A stretch of 43,808 nt of DNA from Candidatus Rokuibacteriota bacterium (GTDB lineage Bacteria > Methylomirabilota > Methylomirabilia > Rokubacteriales > CSP1-6), in assembly GCA_003220495.1 (NCBI GenBank), contig QHSP01000113.1:1-43808 (forward strand). Reading direction: 5' to 3'. The notes below the pieces were generated by a model that searched no databases, was not told where the DNA came from, and saw nothing but the letters and a program-made list of their open reading frames with translations. Shown one piece after another: positions 9,144 through 27,761 of the stretch (position 1 is its first letter; every line of letters begins with the position of its first letter). The translations under genes were made by a program, and so were the position numbers.

Positions 9144-10688
9144 CTATTCGCTCGTTCCCATCCGGGTCGCGTCGACGAACTGCTCGGTCGCATCGTCGAT
9201 GGCGCGGCCCTTGCGGCCTGGCGCCTGCAGAACATAGAGCAGCTTTGGATCGACCTTCGCCTGTGCGGGCGGCGGCAGCTTCATCTCGTAGGTGACGGGA
9301 CGGTGATGGTCGGCCAGCAGGAGCTTGGGATCGAACACGCGGTCGAACTTCCACAGGCTCCTGAAGAAGTTCGTCTGCCCCCGCGCGAGGTGGCCGAGCA
9401 CGATGGTCGTCAGATCTCGGAGCGCGGCCCATCCCATGTGCTTCATCGCCAGCACGCGCTGGGTGCGGACGAGCTCTTCGTAGAAGTCCGCGAGCGGCAG
9501 CCGCGTCGGCAGCACCGCGTGCTGGATGTCGTAGAGCCGATAGTCGCGCGTGTGGATGCGCCGCGCCTCGGTGCGCCAGGTCTCCGTGCCCGGATACGGC
9601 GTGTTGACCGAGATGTTCACGATCTCCGGGATCTCCAGACACCACTGGCGGACGACCGCGAAGCGCTCGCGGTCCCACTCGGGGTCGGCGATCAGGTTGA
9701 TGGCGACCTGGATGCCGAGCGAGCGCGCGAACTCGAGGGCCTCGAAGGCGTGGCCGAGCGAGATCCGCTTGCGGTACTTGCGCAGGCCCTCCTCGTCGAT
9801 GGCCTCGAGGCCGAGGAACATGTACTGCAGGCCCAGACGCGTCCACATCCGGAAGACGTCCTTGTTGCGGAGGAGCACGTCGCCGCGCGTCTCGAGGTAG
9901 TACTGCTTGCGAATCCCGCGGCGCGCGATCGCTTCGCCGATCTCGAAGCCGTGCTTGGCCTGCACGAAGGCCACGTCGTCGACGATGAAGACGCCGGGCT
10001 CTCGGATCGAGGCGAGGTCTTCGACGGCCCGCTCCGGGCTGACCATGCGGTAGCTCCGGCCGTAGAACGTCCAGGCGCTGCAGAAGGCGCAATCCCACGG
10101 ACAGCCCCGCGCGAACTCGATCGACGCGCACGGGTCGAGCGTGCCGAGGAAGTAGCGCCGGCGGCGCCGCAGCAGATCGCGCGCGGGGACGAGCGCATCG
10201 AGGCTCTCGACCAGGCGCGCGGGCGGTCCTTCTCCGTCCAGGCTGACGACGCCGGGGACCTGGGCGATCGATCGGCGATCGTGCTCGACGGCCTCGAGCA
10301 GCTCGGCCACCGAGGCTTCGCCCTCGCCCTTGAGGATGCAGTCGATGGCGCCGCCCGCGTGCTCGAGCAGCTCCTGCGCGGTAAAGGAGGCGCTGTGGCC
10401 CCCGACGAAGATGAATGTGTCGGGCCGTCGAGCGCGGGTCAGCTTGGCCAGGTCCACGACCTCGGGGACGTTCGCCAGATAATTACAGGAGAACGCGACC
10501 ACATCCGGCTGCCAGTCGTCGACGAGCCTGAAGTAATCCTTGTGCGTGCCGGCCTGGAGGTCGATGAGCTGGACGTCGTGGCCGGCCCGGCGGACGGCCG
10601 CGGCGACCAGCTCGAGCCCGAGCGGCTCCAGCCGGAGGAAGATCTTCGTGTACATCAGCGGGCCGGGGTGAACGGCGAGGACTCGCAT
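9144..10688 (-). CDS. hpnR: Hopanoid C-3 methylase, B12-binding radical SAM enzyme
   Basis: 514 residues. An N-terminal cobalamin-binding Rossmann domain (~1-140: VHPGPLMYTKIFLRLEPLG, VVAFSCNYLANVPEV, FVGGHSASF) is followed by a radical SAM barrel with the cluster motif CPWDCAFC (Cys196, Cys200, Cys203). Then comes the family C-terminal region (NISVNTPYPGTETW, DIQHAVLPTRLPL). HpnR adds a methyl group to C-3 of the hopanoid A ring. Length and these segments agree closely with my memory of methanotroph HpnR. Other hopanoid genes (shc, hpnC-H) are not in the window. It heads a minus-strand unit with Lin0512 and VOC genes. The start gives the conserved lxVHPGP N-terminus; no clear Shine-Dalgarno is seen. 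Confidence 0.85.
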   Translation of the reverse strand: MRVLAVHPGPLMYTKIFLRLEPLGLELVAAAVRRAGHDVQLIDLQAGTHKDYFRLVDDWQPDVVAFSCNYLANVPEVVDLAKLTRARRPDTFIFVGGHSASFTAQELLEHAGGAIDCILKGEGEASVAELLEAVEHDRRSIAQVPGVVSLDGEGPPARLVESLDALVPARDLLRRRRRYFLGTLDPCASIEFARGCPWDCAFCSAWTFYGRSYRMVSPERAVEDLASIREPGVFIVDDVAFVQAKHGFEIGEAIARRGIRKQYYLETRGDVLLRNKDVFRMWTRLGLQYMFLGLEAIDEEGLRKYRKRISLGHAFEALEFARSLGIQVAINLIADPEWDRERFAVVRQWCLEIPEIVNISVNTPYPGTETWRTEARRIHTRDYRLYDIQHAVLPTRLPLADFYEELVRTQRVLAMKHMGWAALRDLTTIVLGHLARGQTNFFRSLWKFDRVFDPKLLLADHHRPVTYEMKLPPPAQAKVDPKLLYVLQAPGRKGRAIDDATEQFVDATRMGTSE

Positions 10689-17875: not shown

Positions 17876-18909
17876 CGCCAGTCGTCGAGCACGAGGTCCG
17901 AGGGGTCCTCGTAGTCCTCCTGCTTGCCGCGCTGCATCCGGATCATGGTGAAGTCGATCTGATATCCGCATTGGATGAGGACGTTGTACGCGGTCCAGTA
18001 GCGAGCATACACGGGGAGGATCACCCGTTGCACGCCCAGCTCCTGGCCGAGTCCCTCGATGATCGTGACGAACTGCTCGAGGTGCTCCGGCTTCTTCTGC
18101 GGCGGATCGATGGCGAGGAACTTCACGTACAGGGAGCCGGCCGGCGCCTCGCTGACGCCGGGCGAGTGGCAGATCGCGAAGCCGATGACGTCGCGGCCGC
18201 GCTCGAGCAAGAGCGTGTCGCCGAGCGCCAGGCCGTCGACGATCTCGATCTCCTTCGCGAGGTCCATGCCCCGGTACACCGCGTTGGTGATCCGGTGGAT
18301 CCGCACGAGCGCGGCCTTCTTCTTCGCCTCCTCGAGCGTCGAGAAGCGGCGCGCTGTCACCGGCGTCTTCACCCCGGCCTTCGCCAGCGTCGAGACGCGG
18401 GCCGGGCCGCGGTCGATCGCCCGGCTCATGACCGCGGTCAGGTGCTTGGGCCGGTAGCCGAACTTGTGGTAGAGGTACAGGTGCTTCGGGCTCGTGGGAT
18501 ACGTCACGCAGCCGTGGAGCGTCGCCTTGTTCTCGTCGAAGAAGTCCTGCGCCGCCCGGATCAGCTGCTGCCCGATCGTTTGATTGTGATAGTTCGTGAG
18601 CACCGCGACCGGGCCGAGCACGCCGACGGTGCCCCAGGTGACGGCGAGCACGGCGCCCACGATCTTCGAGCTGTCCTCCTCGGCGACGAAGCAGCCCCAC
18701 GGCTCCATGAGCCAGCGATGGTGGACGTACTGCGCGCCGCCGAACGCCTGGCGCGGGCGCGTCCCGAGCTGGCGCTCGAGGAAATCGCCGAAGGTCTGCT
18801 CCATGACGTCGCGGACCTTCGCCAGGTCGCCCTTCCGCACCCGACGGATTTGAACTTTGGGGAGCCGGCCCTGAGGGTCGAGCCCGGCGCGATCGACCGT
18901 GGCCCTCAC
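17872..18909 (-). CDS. GNAT-family acyltransferase-like protein (tandem)
   Basis: 345 residues from GTG 18909, which overlaps the stop of the preceding dehydrogenase gene by 4 nt (GTGA). The N-terminal half carries GNAT features: VQIRRVRKGDLAKVRDVMEQ, then VGAVLAVTWGTVGVLGPVAV, NQTIGQQLIRAAQDFF in place of the Q/RxxGxG/A acetyl-CoA loop, and LYLYHKFGYRP. The C-terminal half (~230-345) repeats a degenerate version (VKFLAIDPPQKKPEHLEQF, then a region ending in ARYWTAYNVLIQCGYQ). The acceptor substrate is unknown. No partner suggests it directly; it lies between a reductase and a CopC-like gene in an operon of overlapping genes. Confidence 0.8.
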   Translation of the reverse strand: MRATVDRAGLDPQGRLPKVQIRRVRKGDLAKVRDVMEQTFGDFLERQLGTRPRQAFGGAQYVHHRWLMEPWGCFVAEEDSSKIVGAVLAVTWGTVGVLGPVAVLTNYHNQTIGQQLIRAAQDFFDENKATLHGCVTYPTSPKHLYLYHKFGYRPKHLTAVMSRAIDRGPARVSTLAKAGVKTPVTARRFSTLEEAKKKAALVRIHRITNAVYRGMDLAKEIEIVDGLALGDTLLLERGRDVIGFAICHSPGVSEAPAGSLYVKFLAIDPPQKKPEHLEQFVTIIEGLGQELGVQRVILPVYARYWTAYNVLIQCGYQIDFTMIRMQRGKQEDYEDPSDLVLDDWR

Positions 18910-19790
18910 CGAGAGAGGCCCGCGAGATCTTCCAGCAGGGTGATCACGCCCGAGTGATCGAATCCCCCGCGCCCCTTCACACGGAGCGCACTGAACAATT
19001 CCTGAACTACGGCCGTCGCCGGCAATGGCACGCCGAGGGCACGGGCGGATTCCATGATCAATCCGAGATCCTTGTAGTGCAGGTCGATCTTGAAGCCCGG
19101 GTTGTACGTATCGGCCAGGTAGTTCGGCTTCTTCTGATCGAGGCACCTCGAGCCGGCGAGCCCGCCGGCGAGCGCGGTCAGGGTGAGCTCGCGGTCGAGC
19201 CCCGCTTTCTTCGCCAGGGTCAGCGCCTCGCCGAGCGCGGTCAGGTTGACGGCCACGATGATCTGGTTCGCGAGCTTCGTGAAACCACCGGCGCCGAGCG
19301 GCCCGAGGTGGGTGATCGTCTTGCCCATCGCCTGGAAGATCGGCAGGACCTGATCGAAGACCCCCTTGTCGCCGCCGACCATGATCGAGAGCACGCCGTC
19401 GGTCGCGCCCTTCTCGCCGCCGGACACGGGCGCGTCGAGCATCTTCACGGATTTCTCGGCGAGCGCCGCGCCGATCTTCTGCGAGACGAGCGGGGAGATC
19501 GTGGACATGTCCAGGAGGACGAGGCCCGGCCGCGCTCCCTCGATCACACCATCACGGCCAAGCACGACCTGCTCGACGTCGGGCGAATTGGGCAGCATCG
19601 TGATCAGGACGTCCGACTGTGCGGCCACATCGCGCGGTGAGGTGCCGACTTTTGCGCCGGTTCTGGCGATCTCGTCGACGGGTCCCCGGCTCCGGCTGTG
19701 GACGACCAGGGGGTAGCCCGCCTTCAATAGATTTCGGGCCATCGGGCGTCCCATAATACCAAGTCCAATAAAACCAATCACTTGCGCCAT
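18906..19790 (-). CDS. 3-hydroxyisobutyrate dehydrogenase / tartronate semialdehyde reductase-like
   Basis: 294 residues. The N-terminal Rossmann domain starts IGFIGLGIMGRPMARNLLKAG (GxGxxG). The family motifs are all present: LDAPVSGGEKGA (substrate site), GAGGFTKLANQIIVA with the catalytic Lys, then an all-helical C-domain (KIDLHYKDLGLIMESARALG). Family enzymes reduce or oxidise short beta-hydroxyacids with NAD(P). Which substrate is unresolved; the pattern is close to 2-hydroxy-3-oxopropionate reductase. The ATG at 19790 has GGGGG upstream; an ATG at 19835 would add an unconserved leader. It starts an operon continuing into GNAT, CopC-like and aldo/keto reductase genes. A second member lies at 23996. 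Confidence 0.87.
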   Translation of the reverse strand: MAQVIGFIGLGIMGRPMARNLLKAGYPLVVHSRSRGPVDEIARTGAKVGTSPRDVAAQSDVLITMLPNSPDVEQVVLGRDGVIEGARPGLVLLDMSTISPLVSQKIGAALAEKSVKMLDAPVSGGEKGATDGVLSIMVGGDKGVFDQVLPIFQAMGKTITHLGPLGAGGFTKLANQIIVAVNLTALGEALTLAKKAGLDRELTLTALAGGLAGSRCLDQKKPNYLADTYNPGFKIDLHYKDLGLIMESARALGVPLPATAVVQELFSALRVKGRGGFDHSGVITLLEDLAGLSR

Positions 19791-19825
19791 AGGACCCCCG
19801 TGATCCGTGTCGGAAGAAGTGATAA

Positions 19826-19855
19826 CAAATAGCACACCGATGCGAAGACGGTCAA
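19826..19855 (-). promoter_or_regulatory. Candidate promoter of the 19790 operon
   Basis: Minus strand TTGACC (19855-19850, five of six), 18 nt, TATTTG (19831-19826, weak -10). It leaves a ~29-nt leader with the GGGGG ribosome site, in the 105-nt gap after the AOR gene. Confidence 0.4.
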
Positions 19856-19895
19856 GAGATGACCGCTCGGAGGGTCCTGCGCGCGCGTTACCAGC

Positions 19896-21845
19896 CTACG
19901 ACTTCTTACCCCAGAGGTCCTTCGAAAGCCAGTCCAGACCGAGCTCTTTGAGGGTCTTCGGCCAGGGTTTGCCGGTCTTGCGGTCGAAGCCGACCTCGGC
20001 GTACCAGGTGTCGAGCATCTTTTCCCACTGCGCCCGGATAGCCTGCCCCTTCGCGGGGCCGTCCACCGGGGTCGAGCCATAACGCGCCGATGGATATTCC
20101 GTGGCGCCGGTGTGCCCACAGCGGAGCGCGGTCGCGCGGTTGACGCTGGCGGTGCGCTTTCCGAAGCGGAGCGCCTCCTCGACCGTGAAGGTCCAGCCGG
20201 TCGCCGCCGAGACGGCGCGGCAGATGTTCTCGAGCCGGGTCCGCGACGTGAAGATGCAGATGCCGAGCGAGTCTTCGAAGCTCCGTCGGCCGCGCAGCCC
20301 GGCGACGTACTTGGCGACTTGCTCGCCGTCGAAGGGATTGATCCGCGCGGGCTGGCCGATCTCCGTCGGGTGCACGGGGTTGCCCGTCTCCATCGTCGCG
20401 GTGGACGAGGTGCACGTGTCGAGCATCTCCTCCCACCGCGCGCGGTGATCGTGGCCGCGCGGCGTCGCGCCCTTCTCGATGTAGATCGCGCAATCCTTGG
20501 CGGGGCCGCCGAGCTTCTCGGCGGCGCGCTTGACACCCTCGGCGAGGACATCGCCGAACCCTTCGCGCCGCGACACCATCTGCAGGAGACGATGCGCGCC
20601 CTTGATGTCGCCCCACTTGAGCTCGAAGCCGAGCTGCTCGCGGGTGATGTAGCCCTTCTCCTGGCACTCCATGACCCAGCCGCAGAGCCAGCCCCACTCG
20701 TTGACGTCGACACACGCCTTGTCGCACTCGGTATTGAGCCAGGCCACGCCGTCGCGGTCGGCGGCGCCGATCGCCCAGCCGCATCCGGACCAGCCCTCGT
20801 ACTCGGGCTCGTCGACGATCTGTCCCTTCTTGTCGCCGTGACGGATCACCGACATGTGGCAGTGGTGCATGCCGCAGGCGTTGCACTGGTGACCGCGGTG
20901 GTCGAAGTTCTCGCGGAGCTTTGGCGCCTCCCACGCGGCCATGTCGGCGCCCGCGACGTTCGCGGTCAGGTTGGTCGTGTAGTTCTTGATCGGCAAGGCG
21001 CCCATCTTCGAGAGGTTCACGACACCCGGCAGGGTGCCGTACTCGTAGAGCGAGCGCGCCGAGGCGTCGGTCTGCAGATCGTGCGACATGTCCTCGGCTG
21101 CCTGCATCAAGCCCCGCGGATCGGCGGCGCGCAGCGCCTTCGTGCCCTTGACGATCGCCACGGCCTTCAGCCGCTTCTTGCCCATCGCCGCGCCGCAGCC
21201 GTTCTTGGACGCGACGTGGCCGAAATCACCCTGGATGGCGGCGAACTTCACGAGATTTTCGCCGGCGGGACCGATCGAGTAGACCGAGAGCTGGTGACCG
21301 GCGAGCCCGGTCTCGCGATAGAGCGCGTTCTGAGTTTCCCACGTGTCCAGGCCGATCAGCGACTTGGCCTCGCGAAGCTCGATGACGTCGTCGTTGATGT
21401 AGAGGTAGACCCAGTCCTTCGACTGGCCCTGGACGATGATCGCGTCGTACCCGCAATATTTCAGATTCGTGCCGAAGAATCCGTTGGCCTGCGTCGAGGT
21501 CGGGCCGTTGGTGCCCGGGCCGATGGTGCAGACGGTGAGGCCGCCGGTGCCCCATACCGGAAGACCCGCGAGCGGCCCCGTCCCCAGCACGAGCCGGTTG
21601 TCGGGATGGTCCCACGCGACGTTCTTCTTGCCGTCCTTCGTCGCGGTCTCGCGATAGAGGATCATCGCGCCGAGGCCGACGCCGCCGAGCTCGGCGCGCA
21701 TCCGGTCCGGGCCCCACGGCTCGGCCCAGCACTTCCGCCGCGTGAGGTCGACGCGCAAAAGGTTGCCGGCGAAGGCGCCGGGGCGCGCGGTCGTGGCGGT
21801 CTTCGTCTTGGATTGCTTCGGCGCGGTCGCGGCTACTGGAGTCAT
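19896..21845 (-). CDS. aorB: Tungsten aldehyde:ferredoxin oxidoreductase catalytic subunit
   Basis: 649 residues. The N-terminal AFOR domain begins GNLLRVDLTRRKC, with VGLGAMILYRE, LVLGTGPLAGLPV and TSTQANGFFG lining the bis-pterin site. GHVASKNGCGAAMGKKRLKA is the conserved cofactor region. The Fe-S ligands appear as Cys321, Cys324 and Cys329 (CNACGMHHC) plus Cys530 in DSLGICIF; the C-x2-C-x4-C spacing differs from the common C-x2-C-x3-C. The family oxidises aldehydes to acids, or reduces acids, with a W-bispterin cofactor. The ATG overlaps the stop of the FAD protein gene by 4 nt. Together with the polyferredoxin and FAD protein it resembles the three-part AorABC complex of Aromatoleum. The symbol is by analogy. 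Confidence 0.88.
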   Translation of the reverse strand: MTPVAATAPKQSKTKTATTARPGAFAGNLLRVDLTRRKCWAEPWGPDRMRAELGGVGLGAMILYRETATKDGKKNVAWDHPDNRLVLGTGPLAGLPVWGTGGLTVCTIGPGTNGPTSTQANGFFGTNLKYCGYDAIIVQGQSKDWVYLYINDDVIELREAKSLIGLDTWETQNALYRETGLAGHQLSVYSIGPAGENLVKFAAIQGDFGHVASKNGCGAAMGKKRLKAVAIVKGTKALRAADPRGLMQAAEDMSHDLQTDASARSLYEYGTLPGVVNLSKMGALPIKNYTTNLTANVAGADMAAWEAPKLRENFDHRGHQCNACGMHHCHMSVIRHGDKKGQIVDEPEYEGWSGCGWAIGAADRDGVAWLNTECDKACVDVNEWGWLCGWVMECQEKGYITREQLGFELKWGDIKGAHRLLQMVSRREGFGDVLAEGVKRAAEKLGGPAKDCAIYIEKGATPRGHDHRARWEEMLDTCTSSTATMETGNPVHPTEIGQPARINPFDGEQVAKYVAGLRGRRSFEDSLGICIFTSRTRLENICRAVSAATGWTFTVEEALRFGKRTASVNRATALRCGHTGATEYPSARYGSTPVDGPAKGQAIRAQWEKMLDTWYAEVGFDRKTGKPWPKTLKELGLDWLSKDLWGKKS

Positions 21846-23167
21846 ACGGCCACCGGGCTTTCCCCGGGCGCCTTCGACGGGCGTCCCAGGATGGTTTCGG
21901 GAAGCAAGCTGCTGGTCGTCTTGGTCGCGATGAACGCGGGCTTGATGTCGAACGGATTCTTCTTCAAATGCGCTTTCCAGGGGCCGAGCGAGACGCCGGA
22001 CTGCACGAGCCCCTTGAGCATGCCGACGTCGTTGCTCGTCCAGATGTCGCTCGACGGGCCGAGGATGATCGCGCCCGTCAGGCGATCGCCACGCCAGAGG
22101 AGCTTGCGATACGCCGGCCGGTCGGGCTTGACCCCATTTGCGGCCTCGGCCTTCGCGTCGTCCCAGGCGCCGAACGACGCGACGTCGAGATGGCAGACCT
22201 CGACGATGTTGATGATGAGGCTCCCGCGGTAGCGCACGTCCTTGCCGGCCATGTTGGCGCCGACGATGCGGCCGTGCTCCTGCGCCGTGGGCTCGATGGC
22301 GTGGACCGCGTTGGCCTGCGAGATCAGGTCGCGGCCTTCGGCGACGTCGCCGGCCGCGTAGACGTTCGGGACGCTCGAGCGAAGGTGATCGTCGACGACG
22401 ACGCCCTGGTTGATCTTCACATCCGAGCCCTTGAGCCAGTCGAGGTTCGTCCGGATGCCGGTCGCCATGATCACGACGTCGGCGACCAGGTCGCCGCCCG
22501 CGGCCATCTTGAGCCGGCGCCGACCTTTCACGTCGTCGATGCGGGTGAGCTTGGCTCCCGTGCGCACCGCGACCCCGTTCTGCTCGAGCCATGTCTGGAC
22601 GAGTCCGGCGCCCGTGTCGTCGATCATCCGCGGCAGGATACGCGGAGCCACTTCCACGATCGTCAGCTTGGCGCCGAGCGACAGGATGGAGTTGAGGATC
22701 GTGAACGCGATGAAGCCCGCTCCGACCATGACCACGTGGCTGCCCGGCTGGATCTGCGCCAGCACGCCGCGGGCCTGATCGAGGGTCCAGAAGGAGTGGA
22801 CCCCCGGTCCGTCAGCGCCCGGAACCGGCGCGCGGACGGCCGACGAGCCCGTCGCGATCAGGCAGTCGTCGTACTCGACCTTCGTGCCATCGTCGAGGGT
22901 GCACACGTTCGCCTTCGTATCGAGCGCGGTCGCGCGCTTGCCCAGCTGCGTCGTGGTCCCCCAGTCGGCCAGCACCCTCGCGGTCGCGGTGAACACGTGC
23001 GATTCGGCGATCGAGCGGTCGAGGTAGTACGGCAGGACCATCCGCGAGTACGGTTTCTCCGCGCTCACCAGCGTGATCGTCGACCGCTCGCTCTCCTCCT
23101 CGCGGATCGTCCGGATCGCGTTCATCCCCGCGGTGCCGCCCCCGATGATCAGGTGTCGGCGGGCCAT
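21842..23167 (-). CDS. aorC: FAD-dependent NAD(P)H oxidoreductase subunit of the AOR complex
   Basis: 441 residues. It has two dinucleotide-binding regions: FAD at HLIIGGGTAGMNAIRTI and NAD(P) at VVMVGAGFIAFTILNSI. CLIATGSSAV and the late VYAAGDVAEG FAD motif are also present, and the fold matches pyridine nucleotide-disulfide oxidoreductase class proteins such as rubredoxin/nitrite-reductase-type NADH oxidoreductases. No redox-active CxxxxC is seen, so a disulfide reductase is unlikely. In AorABC-type systems the FAD subunit passes electrons between the ferredoxin subunit and NAD. Its ATG shares one base with the stop of the ferredoxin gene (TGATG), and its stop overlaps the AOR start: tight coupling in stoichiometric expression. 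The symbol is by analogy. Confidence 0.85.
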   Translation of the reverse strand: MARRHLIIGGGTAGMNAIRTIREEESERSTITLVSAEKPYSRMVLPYYLDRSIAESHVFTATARVLADWGTTTQLGKRATALDTKANVCTLDDGTKVEYDDCLIATGSSAVRAPVPGADGPGVHSFWTLDQARGVLAQIQPGSHVVMVGAGFIAFTILNSILSLGAKLTIVEVAPRILPRMIDDTGAGLVQTWLEQNGVAVRTGAKLTRIDDVKGRRRLKMAAGGDLVADVVIMATGIRTNLDWLKGSDVKINQGVVVDDHLRSSVPNVYAAGDVAEGRDLISQANAVHAIEPTAQEHGRIVGANMAGKDVRYRGSLIINIVEVCHLDVASFGAWDDAKAEAANGVKPDRPAYRKLLWRGDRLTGAIILGPSSDIWTSNDVGMLKGLVQSGVSLGPWKAHLKKNPFDIKPAFIATKTTSSLLPETILGRPSKAPGESPVAV

Positions 23168-23637
23168 CAGCGGGCCTCGGCGAGAACGCGCGCGGTGCGC
23201 TCGCGGGCGAAATCGCCGAGCCAGTCGGCGGTCTCGACGTCCTCGTACGTGATGGCGGCCGTCGGGCACGCCTCGGCGCAGGCCGGGGCGCCGCCGCAGA
23301 GGTTGCACTTGAAGGCCTTGCGCGTCGCCGGATCGTAGAACATCGTCCCGTAGGGGCAGGCGATCGTGCAGAGCTTGCAGCCGACGCACCGGTCGTCCTG
23401 GACGTCCTTGGCCCCGACGGCGCTGATCGTGATCGCGCCGACCGGGCAGGCCGTCATGCACCACCCCTCGGCACACTGCGTGCACGTGTACGGCGCGTAG
23501 GAGGTGTGACCCTCGAAGGGCGAGACACGGATCACGGACTTGGCGGGCTGGTAGTCGCCGGTCTGCATGTACGAGCACGCGAGCTCACAGCGCAGACAGC
23601 CCGTGCACTTCTCCGGATGGATCTTGAGAACCTTCAA
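23167..23637 (-). CDS. aorA: Polyferredoxin subunit (four [4Fe-4S] clusters) of the AOR complex
   Basis: 156 residues with 16 Cys in four cluster motifs: KCTGCLRCELAC (11-21), then TCTQCAEGWCMTACPVG, DDRCVGCKLCTIACPYG and KCNLCGGAPACAEACP. This layout (HycB/DmsB-like iron-sulfur subunit) is that of electron-transfer subunits. It likely wires the tungsten enzyme to the FAD protein. Its ATG overlaps the stop of the GYD protein by 4 nt, and the FAD protein start shares one base with its stop. The C-terminal ~30 residues (DWLGDFARERTARVLAEAR) are helical and could form a docking contact. Cytoplasmic, as no signal is seen. The symbol is by analogy to AorA. Confidence 0.87.
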   Translation of the reverse strand: MKVLKIHPEKCTGCLRCELACSYMQTGDYQPAKSVIRVSPFEGHTSYAPYTCTQCAEGWCMTACPVGAITISAVGAKDVQDDRCVGCKLCTIACPYGTMFYDPATRKAFKCNLCGGAPACAEACPTAAITYEDVETADWLGDFARERTARVLAEAR

Positions 23638-23957
23638 CGCTTCTTCCTTTCGCCGCGTCGGCGGGCGGTGCCGCGCTCGAGCCGGCCGATGAATTCGTCG
23701 AGGGGGATCGCCGGCATCGTCATACCGGCGACGCCGCCTCGAGCGCCGAGCTCGACCGACACGCGCGAGATCGTCGCGTTGTCCGGCGCCTCGATGATGG
23801 TGACGAAATCGTACGGGCCCAGGACCGCGTACTGGCCGACGACGCGGGCGCCCATGCGCTGCACGTCGGCGTTGACCTTGCGGATCCAGCCTGGCCGCCC
23901 GCGGAGGACCTTGCGCCCCGATTCGGACAGCGTGCTCAGCATGACGTACATCGCCAC
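23634..23957 (-). CDS. GYD domain protein
   Basis: 107 residues. MYVMLSTLSESGRKVL, then QYAVLGPYDFVTIIEAPD and a MTMPAIPLDEF ending fit the GYD family, a small ferredoxin-like alpha/beta dimer fold named for its Gly-Tyr-Asp motif (here GPYDF). Its function is unknown. The C-terminus (TARRRGERKKR) is very basic and disordered-looking. The ATG at 23957 has a GGAGGCC-type site upstream, and its stop overlaps the polyferredoxin start by 4 nt, so it is made with the AOR complex. An accessory role for the tungsten enzyme, such as assembly or aldehyde sensing, is inference only. Confidence 0.8.
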   Translation of the reverse strand: MAMYVMLSTLSESGRKVLRGRPGWIRKVNADVQRMGARVVGQYAVLGPYDFVTIIEAPDNATISRVSVELGARGGVAGMTMPAIPLDEFIGRLERGTARRRGERKKR

Positions 23958-23995
23958 GATGGCCTCCCTCGGCCGTTCACGCCCGGGTCAGCATA

Positions 23996-24898
23996 TCAGA
24001 CCGGTGATTCGCGGCTTGATGCTCTCAGAAACATATAGATCGACGAGAAGTCCTTCCGCCCGAATCCGTGCGACGAGGCCAGCCGGAGCGCCTGCTGGGC
24101 CGCCGGCGCCACGACGACCGGCACGCGCAGCTCGCGCGCGGCGTTGACGACCAGCCCGAGGTCCTTCGCCATCAGGTCGGTCGTGAAGCCCGGCGCGTAG
24201 TCGCGGCTCGAGGGCGCCTTGCCGACGAGCCCTGGCACCGGATGCATGTGCTCCATCACCCAGGTGTTGCCCGACGATTTGGAGATGACGTCGGTCAAGA
24301 TCTTTGGATCGACGCCGAATCCCTCGGCGATCCTGAACGCCTCGCTCACCGCCACGGCCGCGACACCCGCGACGAGGTTGTTGCAGAGCTTGGCGACCTC
24401 GCCGGCCCCGACCGGCCCGACGTGGATGATGTTGGCGCCCATCGCCGCCAGCACCGGACGCGCCTCCTCGAAGTCGCGCGCGTCGCCGCCGACCATGATG
24501 GCGAGCGTACCGTCCGTGGCCCGCGGCACGCCCCCGGACACCGGCGCGTCGATGAAGCGCGCGCCGCGCTTGGTCACCGCCTCCGCGACCCGCCGCGACA
24601 CGCTCGGATCGATCGTCGACATGTCGATGCAGAGGCGTCCGGCGCCGATGCCCTCCAGCACGCCGCCGGGGCCCAGGTAGGCCGCCTCGACGTGCGACGA
24701 CGACGGGAGGATCGTGACCACCAGCTCGCTGTCCCGCGCCGCCGCCGCGGACGACGCGGCACGCGTGGCGCCGGCCTTGACCGCGCCGGCCAGCGCGGGC
24801 TCGACGACGTCGTACGCGACGATCTGATGTCCGTGCTTGAGGAGGTTCGCCAGCATCGGCTGGCCCATCGCACCGATTCCGATGAATCCGATCTTCAT
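23996..24898 (-). CDS. 3-hydroxyisobutyrate dehydrogenase-family protein, first gene of the AOR operon
   Basis: 300 residues. MKIGFIGIGAMGQPMLANLL (GxGxxG Rossmann), then FIDAPVSGGVPRATDGTL, then VGAGEVAKLCNNLVAGVAA with the catalytic Lys, and a C-terminal helical domain (TTDLMAKDLGLVVNAARE). These define the beta-hydroxyacid dehydrogenase family, NAD(P) dependent. A GGAG ribosome site lies upstream of the ATG. The GYD gene begins 38 nt downstream on the same strand. Its presence ahead of an aldehyde-oxidising tungsten enzyme suggests a route hydroxyacid to semialdehyde to acid, which is inference. It is a paralogue of the 18906-19790 gene on the other side of the AOR genes. Confidence 0.87.
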   Translation of the reverse strand: MKIGFIGIGAMGQPMLANLLKHGHQIVAYDVVEPALAGAVKAGATRAASSAAAARDSELVVTILPSSSHVEAAYLGPGGVLEGIGAGRLCIDMSTIDPSVSRRVAEAVTKRGARFIDAPVSGGVPRATDGTLAIMVGGDARDFEEARPVLAAMGANIIHVGPVGAGEVAKLCNNLVAGVAAVAVSEAFRIAEGFGVDPKILTDVISKSSGNTWVMEHMHPVPGLVGKAPSSRDYAPGFTTDLMAKDLGLVVNAARELRVPVVVAPAAQQALRLASSHGFGRKDFSSIYMFLRASSRESPV

Positions 24899-25896: not shown

Positions 25897-27546
25897 TCAG
25901 ATCGGACGGATCGGGCGCGACACCGCGCGACTGAACGTGCAGTTCGGGACGACCGCCGAGTGCTTGCCCGGCCCCCCGGCGACGATCACCATCACGTCCT
26001 CGGGCGACGGGACTTGCGGCAGCAAGGCGTCGTCGTCGGTGACCGCGTGCATCCAGCGCGGCCAGTCCTGGATACCCCACATCCCGCCGAGCTTCAGCGT
26101 GCGCAGCGGCAGGCGCGCGTTCTCGAACACGAAGCGCTGGACGTCGGCGCGGCTCAATCCGTCGCCCGCGATCGTCCTGGCGTGCTCCGGCCCCAGCACG
26201 ATCAAGATCTGGCTCTGCGACAAGTACCAGCCGACGTTCGAGCCGAGCGAGACGGCCGTGTCGGCCACCGTCGCGAGAATGCCGGCCGCGGTCGTCGAGA
26301 CGTGATCGTTCACGTTGTGCGGCGGCTCGCCGCCGAAGACGGTGACGACGTTGTCCTCGTGGAGCGCGCCCCACGGCGACGCGTCCGCGCGCTCGGCGAT
26401 GCAGTACGAGAATTTCGCGGGGCTCCCCTGGGTCGCCATATCGTGACGGCCCGGCCAGGCGCCGCCGACGTTCAGCAGGATGAGCCGGATCGCGCGGCCG
26501 ATCGTCGCGTTGCCGCGGAAGCCGGGGCCGAAGCACCCACTGCCCGAGTGCACGCCGAGCTCGGCCGCGATGGGGCCGTGGACGATCAGGAGCGGCGCGA
26601 CCGAGTGCGTCGTCGCCTGCACGCCGTACAGGTTGAACGATGGATCGAGCATCGCCTCGACCGCGGCGACGACGAGCGGAAACGCGGCGGGCTCGCAGCC
26701 GGCCATCACCGCGTTGACCGCCAGCTTCTCGAGCGTCGCCAGGCGCCAGAGCGGCGGCATCGCCCCGAGCGAGCGGTCGCCGGACGCGCCGCCGAGCATG
26801 GCCAGCACGCGCGCCTCGGTCGGCGGCACGATCGGCAAGCCGTCGCACCACTGCCGCTCGCAGAAGGCTGCGAGCACGGCTTCCGGCGTATCGTCGATTG
26901 TAGCGGGGTCTGTTGTAGCGGGGTCCGTGAGGTCGGCTTGGACCGCGAGTGGCCTGAGAGAGGTGCTTGCCGGCTCCGCACGCCCGGTCTCGGCCGGGTC
27001 GGTGCTTTTGATTCGGGGCGCCTGTCCTAGCAGTGCGCTGATCTGGTCGACGGCCTGGCGGGCTCTTCGGGCGATGCCCTCGCTACGCTCGCCGCCGAGC
27101 GGGTGCTCGATTGCGACCATAGGCAGTCCGGTGACGCCGAGGGCGCGCATCTCGCTCTGGGCGAGCCCCTGGAATACCGTCGTGCCGATGACCGCGCTCG
27201 GCGTTCCCGCCTTCGCCAGCTCGATGGCGTCGTGGAGACTCCACGACGTGCAGGACCCTCAGTCAGCCGAGCCGGCGAAGACGACGTCGCAGTCCTTTGC
27301 CAGGCCCCCCAGAATCTCTGGAGCGGCCGGAGTGGCGGCGTTGGCCTTGCGGCGCCGGATGACGGCCTTGACCCCGTGCTCGGCGGAGAGAATCGCGCCG
27401 ATCTCGTCGGCGAGCAGGTCGAAGTTCGCCTTCCGGTTGTCGATGAAGCCGACCGTACGGCCGGCCAGCGATCCAGGCAGCGGCGGAACGCTCACGGCGT
27501 CGGCGGCGGCCACACCGACGGGACTCAGGACGCGAATTTGGCTCAT
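25897..27546 (-). CDS. UGSC-family selenoprotein fused to a conserved C-terminal domain (TGA read as Sec)
   Basis: 549 residues if TGA 27261-27259 is read as selenocysteine. The frame is open on both sides. Residue 96 (Sec) is followed by Gly-Ser-Cys (Cys99), the U-G-S-C motif that names this family, then TSWSLHDAIELAKAG and further conserved sequence to ~175. The N-terminal domain begins at MSQIRVLSPVG (ATG 27546). A Pro/Thr linker (~176-220) joins a ~330-residue domain starting ERQWCDGLPIVPPTEARV; it has Gly-rich motifs (GSGCFGPGFRGNATIG, GGDGxxR-like AGDGLSRADV) and an unknown function. A perfect SECIS-like hairpin follows the TGA. A Sec/Cys pair suggests thiol redox or peroxide-type chemistry. 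Standard gene calling would split it at 27150/27259. Its ATG overlaps the small upstream gene. Confidence 0.85.
26898..26925. repeat. 15-bp tandem duplication in the linker coding region
   Basis: TTGTAGCGGGGTC occurs at 26898-26910 and 26913-26925 (period 15). It encodes two copies of an Asp-Pro-Ala-Thr unit in the linker between the UGSC domain and the C-terminal domain. Confidence 0.7.
27228..27261 (-). promoter_or_regulatory. Bacterial SECIS-like hairpin after the in-frame TGA
   Basis: On the minus strand, TGA (27261-27259) is followed by 10 nt and then by CGTCGTGGA (27248-27240), loop GTC, TCCACGACG (27236-27228): a perfect 9-bp stem. The loop starts 19 nt after the TGA and its first base is G, as in known bSECIS elements that bind SelB. 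Confidence 0.75.
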
Positions 27547-27761
27547 GACGTTCTCCGTTTGACCCCGGTGGATCGGGCGAGCAGTCGCCCCAGACTCTCG
27601 TGCAGCTCGGCCAGGACCGTGCGCTTGATCTCGACCGTGACCGACTCGACGGGCTCCGGGTTGCCCTCCCGATGAATGATCAGCGAGCCCACGAACTTCT
27701 CGGCGCGCTCGTCGGTGGCCGCCAGGCCCCGCAAGGTGAGAATTTCCCACGCCTCCGTCAT
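27543..27761 (-). CDS. Small conserved-looking partner of the UGSC selenoprotein
   Basis: 72 residues, not recognised as a named family. MTEAWEILTLRGLAATDERA, then FVGSLIIHREGNPEPVESVT and a C-terminal helix VEIKRTVLAELHESLGRLLA give a small alpha/beta protein with a basic tail (STGVKRRTS). No Cys, no membrane segment. Its stop overlaps the selenoprotein ATG by 4 nt (ATGA), so the two are translated together. The ATG sits exactly 6 nt after TAAGAT and has no Shine-Dalgarno, so the message is probably leaderless. The divergent kinase gene starts 17 nt away. A regulatory or assembly role for the selenoprotein is inference from coupling. Confidence 0.7.
   Translation of the reverse strand: MTEAWEILTLRGLAATDERAEKFVGSLIIHREGNPEPVESVTVEIKRTVLAELHESLGRLLARSTGVKRRTS

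Follow-up and report, generated by a model that had tools for sequence, protein, structure and literature searches.

A predicted UGSC-family selenoprotein of Candidatus Rokuibacteriota, fused to an unnamed domain and probably related to the selenocysteine domain of GrdB

The window analysed here, a stretch of 43,808 nucleotides from a Candidatus Rokuibacteriota genome, contains a long reverse-strand reading frame interrupted by a TGA codon, which raises the question of whether this codon ends a protein or encodes selenocysteine (Sec) within one, and what such a protein would do. The only in-frame TGA is codon 96 of the frame starting at ATG 27546. Sequence and translation agree with the sequence-only reading of the locus, in which the frame contains this single TGA (27261-27259), followed by codons for Gly-Ser-Cys, and remains open to 25897. 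The motif around Sec96 is D-U-G-S-C-T-S-W-S. The features of the gene are collected in Table 1. Ordinary gene callers had been expected to split the gene, and plain ORF calling does so, yielding 27259-27750 and 25897-27150. In plasmid annotations of Acidovorax (L147:8398-8688) and Paracoccus (L150:8351-8920), the UGSC gene is cut off or divided at the TGA.

Table 1 Coordinates of the UGSC gene, its parts and the adjoining upstream frame in the window.
Feature	Position	Strand	Basis or remark
Whole gene, UGSC selenoprotein (predicted) + C-terminal domain	25897..27546	-	549 residues, Sec96, stop TGA 25899-25897
In-frame TGA read as Sec96, then Gly-Ser-Cys	27259..27261	-	Sequence; homologues nearly all with TGA, haloarchaeal ones with Cys
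UGSC domain, residues 6-174; predicted Rossmann-like β/α fold, Sec96 at N-terminus of helix	27025..27531	-	Pfam PF24696; AlphaFold2 model; fold search
Linker, residues 175-215, Pro/Thr/Ala-rich; 178-207 predicted disordered	26902..27024	-	High dN
C-terminal domain, residues 216-549, without Pfam/NCBIfam family	25900..26901	-	Profile searches; AlphaFold2 model
SECIS-like hairpin, bacterial type: 9-bp stem, GTC loop	27228..27248	-	Starts 10 nt past TGA
72-residue ORF just upstream, with ATGA overlap at the UGSC start	27543..27761	-	Probable operon partner

The assignment to the UGSC family was upheld by two profiles above their curated cut-offs, Pfam PF24696 (E 1.2e-46, 159.5 bits against a cut-off of 25) and NCBIfam NF041046 (UGSC_fam, 126.9 bits, just above its cut-off of 125). 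The family, together with a UGSC/'Unknown_1' fusion (Figure S1A of that paper), was published in 2008 from the Global Ocean Sampling survey (PMC2398784), which makes this gene a new member of a selenoprotein family already known. Marine and freshwater surveys place UGSC proteins among their most abundant selenoproteins (PMC2398784, PMC9402790); no function is reported for them in the literature that we found. The nearest relatives of the protein, up to 88% identical, belong to Candidatus Rokuibacteriota. In the window's genome there are seven UGSC genes, all of them containing a single TGA. Across 59 genomes, the window's own plus 58 relatives at the level of genus, family, order or class, UGSC genes were found in 44, amounting to about 230 with up to 12 per genome, the long inventories of UGSC and GRDB genes being taken as lists rather than locus by locus. 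Exactly one TGA is present in each of the best ~150 of the about 230 matches. At loci of other organisms nearly all homologues carry TGA at the Sec96 position, and haloarchaea carry TGT or TGC, which supplies the Cys homologue at position 96 that had been proposed as a check. The U/C-G-S-C motif is encoded with TGA here and with TGA or TGC/TGT in homologues. Plasmid-borne fusions of both domains in Sporomusa (L146:8320-10044) and Vibrio (L149:8323-10008) have MGTS in place of UGSC and adjoin aconitase X and DUF126 genes, so the fold does without Sec in that branch.

Purifying selection acts on the sequence ahead of the TGA and beyond it. Values of dN are well below dS before the TGA, after the TGA and in the C-terminal domain (C-domain), and dN is high in linker residues 175-215, as would be expected of a single continuous protein whose linker is disordered. 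The hairpin described in the sequence-only reading is found in place: 10 nt after the TGA, CGTCGTGGA and TCCACGACG pair as a 9-bp stem around a GTC loop, which begins with G and lies 19 nt from the TGA. Its folding energy alone is unremarkable (z = -0.40 against dinucleotide shuffles of 55 nt), and synonymous-codon shuffles gave p of about 0.2 (same sequence in relatives), with a mean z of -2.0 over 70 TGA loci. Comparison across loci is more telling. In an alignment of 27 diverse loci, pairing holds in 88.5% of cells, three pairs are changed on both sides where shuffles give 0.6, and sliding the hairpin partner always makes the pairing far worse. Judged from these alignments, the hairpin is convincing through comparison and not as a single sequence. 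It lies near the UGA, opens its loop with G and is kept in homologues, as expected of a bacterial SECIS element. Stability by itself was discarded as proof of a SECIS element, being not significant; two haloarchaeal Cys loci also fold well at this position, so part of the stem is owed to the protein sequence. Within the window, no Rfam match at the gathering threshold and no tRNA were found.

The machinery for Sec incorporation, whose absence had been named as an argument against a selenoprotein, is present in the genome (5.98 Mb, 98% complete) with all of selA, selB, selC and selD: selB, selA and tRNA-Sec (69.8 bits) lie together on contig C152, and selD on C1. In the genome set selA exceeds its cut-off in 57 of 59. 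The selD gene (C1:77537-78481, L113) carries one in-frame TGA of its own, so the selenophosphate synthetase of this genome is probably itself a selenoprotein. The Pfam match, the Sec machinery, the conserved TGA, the haloarchaeal Cys and the dN below dS on either side of the TGA bear out the earlier claim, and the gene almost certainly encodes a genuine selenoprotein in which UGA codon 96 is decoded as Sec. Were the TGA a real stop, a truncated UGSC protein would be made and the C-domain translated from its own start. An ATG-started ORF for this does exist (25897-27150), C-domains do occur as separate genes and the hairpin alone is statistically unexceptional, but the ATG in question sits within the conserved post-TGA part, residues 97-174, which belong to the Pfam domain, show conservation and a dN far under dS, the TGA is kept across phyla with Cys instead in haloarchaea, and the genome has the complete Sec machinery. 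Moreover, no homologue was found in which the TGA is a true stop followed by a separate second start; in two-gene loci the second gene begins only after the UGSC frame, with its conserved post-TGA half, has ended at a stop of its own. A real stop is thus extremely improbable.

The selenoprotein reading leads to the question of what kind of Sec domain this is. When the profile of the UGSC alignment was compared with GRDB by hhalign, the probability was 93.4% (E 2.5e-7) over 85 columns with Sec aligned on Sec; a rerun gave 93.6-95.0%, and the value was still 85% with both Sec columns masked, against about 1% for reversed decoys. On these profiles the UGSC domain and the C-terminal, Sec-carrying domain of GrdB are very probably homologous, though divergent. 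The comparison covered GRDB (PF07355-type), and homology to the Sec domain of PrdB is what we infer from it. The UGSC-GrdB relation is new here, a limited literature search having found no published statement of it. The gene product has no PF07355 match at E up to 1, whereas the same profile finds full-length GRDB genes in this genome and its relatives. In the GRDB genes that were read, the PF07355 match stops just before the Sec codon and the post-Sec stretch falls outside the Pfam model, which may be why the profile misses UGSC. Read through the UGA, GRDB proteins continue as ...LTST-U-GTSTRCGA... or ...VAT-U-GTCNRCGATIAKEIERAGIPV.... The window's genome has three GRDB genes (C119, C144 and C59; L139, L140 and L141), all three with TGA at the Sec position and each beside a GrdE/PrdA-type gene, with PF09338 confirmed on C119 and C144. 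The C144 gene reads SG-U-GSC-HRCGA, which is the UGSC motif itself. The chain past Sec measures 78 residues in the UGSC domain, similar to C. sticklandii GrdB (436 residues, Sec350) and PrdB (242 residues, Sec152) (PMC3091704). Many ORFs of ~140-290 residues in the related genomes (G001-G058, e.g. G016:C189:27091-27513) match only GRDB positions ~200-347, and may form a stand-alone GrdB-like family.

In the AlphaFold2 model (mean pLDDT 84.1, pTM 0.85) strands and helices alternate in the UGSC domain and Sec96 opens a helix after the third core strand. The best fold matches are a designed protein, 8s7v_H, receiver domains, PurE and LarB; 8s7v_H, a chain of the methyl-coenzyme M reductase activation complex, aligned over 137 residues with Z 11.0 and rmsd 3.7. 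The order of elements in this predicted model looks Rossmann-like, unlike the fold given in PMC2398784, where UGSC is described as probably Trx-like with a role in redox chemistry. Neither thioredoxin-type nor GrdB structures were among the fold matches listed, an absence that excludes nothing.

The second half of the protein conforms to the earlier description of a UGSC domain joined by a Pro/Thr linker to a domain of about 330 residues. Sequence searches of Pfam, NCBIfam and PDB returned no match for the C-domain, which, judged from its homologues, is an unnamed family occurring in bacteria and archaea. Eight copies are present in this genome, one of which (C114:52647-53630, L108) lies on a contig without a UGSC match. 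The suggested look for separate UGSC and C-terminal proteins revealed both fused and separate forms: elsewhere the two halves are fused or encoded by adjacent genes in the same or reversed order (e.g. L071 and L096), and thus they probably act as one unit. Modelled alone, the C-domain reaches pLDDT 90.0 and pTM 0.91, and it contains one invariant Cys (MAGC). Class I fumarase chains make up all of its top Foldseek matches (E 1e-4); the TM-score is about 0.3 and, from a second aligner, the VIA Z only 4-5. The C-domain has no match to the class I fumarase alpha profile PF05681 and scores 0.3% in hhalign against two fumarases of its own genome. As a partner of the PF09338 (Gly_reductase) kind it has neither a Pfam match nor GrdE profile similarity, and kinship by profile to GRDB, GrdE or fumarase was rejected, all being under 1% in hhalign.

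The 72-residue ORF directly upstream, a probable operon partner, matches no Pfam family and is conserved ahead of UGSC genes at about 25 loci of rokubacteria. The neighbours of UGSC loci are genes of organic-acid catabolism, HpcH among them. In Betaproteobacteria the UGSC/C-domain unit lies beside TctC receptors, CoA transferases and MmgE/PrpD genes, and in haloarchaea near genes for CoA transferase, lyase and amidohydrolase. Copies in the window's own genome are near FlK-type thioesterase, amidohydrolase, LigB and CMD genes, and the seven paralogues differ in gene context. A trxB gene adjoins a Cys-type UGSC gene and C-domain in Roseovarius, both trxA and trxB do so in Arthrobacter, and trxB lies two genes upstream of the UGSC unit in Variovorax. 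In total trxB is nearby in three of eight plasmid loci, all three with Cys and not Sec, and a trxB of that type is found at none of 79 genome loci; the trxB context is therefore support, not proof, for a thioredoxin link. Grd reductases receive electrons from TrxA/TrxB (PMC8547467), and a thioredoxin link is also given in PMC3091704. The neighbours within the window were set aside as a functional clue, and no common operon with them is claimed, because an EamA gene (+) intervenes before the 3-hydroxyisobutyrate dehydrogenase/aldehyde:ferredoxin oxidoreductase cluster and the FGGY kinase gene is divergent. That cluster (18906-24898, -) comprises two 3-hydroxyisobutyrate dehydrogenase-type genes, a GYD gene, a ferredoxin-like gene, an FAD/NAD oxidoreductase and an aldehyde:ferredoxin oxidoreductase. 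A B12-binding radical SAM protein is encoded at 9144-10655 (-).

The relation to GrdB points to a reductive catabolic enzyme, not an antioxidant. UGA codon 96 is almost certainly decoded as Sec by SelA, SelB, SelC and SelD with the aid of the downstream hairpin, and the UGSC domain is fused to a partner of its own, much as GrdB pairs with GrdE and PrdB with PrdA. In the mechanism that we propose, the partner domain would bind a small organic-acid-like substrate, and the Sec96 selenolate would attack at the carbon adjacent to the leaving group, which could be an amine, halogen, sulfur or oxygen. Cys99 would then resolve the selenoether, forming an Se-S bond and freeing the reduced product, and thioredoxin with thioredoxin reductase would reset the enzyme. 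The starting points are the UGA conservation, the Sec machinery, the homology and the gene context; from the analogy with D-proline reductase as given in PMC3091704 we infer reductive cleavage, Cys99 as the resolving residue and thioredoxin as the electron donor. The chemistry need not equal that of Grd, since the partner domain shows no profile similarity to GrdE. The MGTS of the Sporomusa and Vibrio fusions also counts against a simple version of this scheme. The explanation as a whole, a genuine selenoprotein with a GrdB-like Sec domain and its own partner engaged in thioredoxin-linked reductive cleavage, has in our view an even chance of being right; the particular sequence of attack by Sec96, resolution by Cys99 and reset by thioredoxin is plausible but tentative.

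Two other roles compete with reductive cleavage. The protein could be a thioredoxin-like thiol-disulfide or peroxide-detoxifying selenoenzyme with the partner domain as a second redox site, in keeping with the fold and role proposed in PMC2398784, with the UxxC motif and trxB neighbours, and with the title of a paper cited in PMC3091704, which names a peroxidase activity of GrdB. The alternating β/α model with its matches to receiver domains, PurE and LarB speaks against this, as do the homology to GrdB, the catabolic neighbours and the differing contexts of seven paralogues, making such a role unlikely. The catalyst could otherwise be the partner domain, as a hydratase/lyase-like enzyme and distant kin of class I fumarase, with the Sec domain serving as sensor, metal ligand or substrate holder. 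The uniform Foldseek matches, the invariant MAGC cysteine and the MmgE/PrpD, lyase and CoA-transferase neighbours would suit that role, and the Sporomusa and Vibrio fusions retain the C-domain while losing the Sec and Cys of UGSC beside aconitase X. However, the structural scores are low, profile similarity to the two own-genome fumarases is absent, and that cysteine is the sole invariant one in the C-domain, whereas fumarases hold their cluster with three Cys. We give a catalytic partner domain only a minor share of the probability.

The GrdB link, the constant partner domain and the thioredoxin genes near some loci provide UGSC proteins with a testable chemistry. In one lineage as many as a dozen selenoprotein genes of a genome belong to this family, and to the published record the present analysis adds the GrdB relation, the expansion into paralogues, the genomic settings and the small gene that overlaps the start codon. 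The sequence-only reading contains neither the GrdB relation nor the seven paralogues nor the overlapping 72-residue frame. It is conceivable, though we would not yet favour it, that the UGSC domain and C-domain represent a second, separate build of a Grd/Prd-type selenium reductase with a new substrate-binding partner, outside the classical amino-acid fermenters, which in Rokubacteria radiated into up to a dozen paralogues per genome for different organic acids.

Within its own family (PF24696/NF041046) the protein is typical in profile match, UGSC motif, UGA codon and hairpin, but its fusion to a domain of 330 residues, unnamed in both Pfam and NCBIfam, sets it apart. The UGSC/'Unknown_1' fusion of PMC2398784 likewise combines UGSC with a conserved domain of unknown function, the likeness being one of description as that source gives it. 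With GrdB and PrdB of the glycine, sarcosine, betaine and D-proline reductases, the protein would share a homologous Sec-bearing C-terminal domain with a U-G-[ST]-[CS] motif, a dedicated partner subunit and a catabolic setting. In contrast, the first ~335 residues of GrdB are unmatched by the UGSC protein, and the partner of the UGSC domain is not GrdE/PrdA. The farB/farE fluoroacetate reductase of Cloacibacillus, in which a GrdB-type Sec protein is proposed to attack a C-F bond, shows the substrate plasticity of the GrdB family (PMC10838667); it differs from the UGSC protein in being of the full-length GrdB type, with a GrdE-type partner, and in serving anaerobic dehalorespiration.
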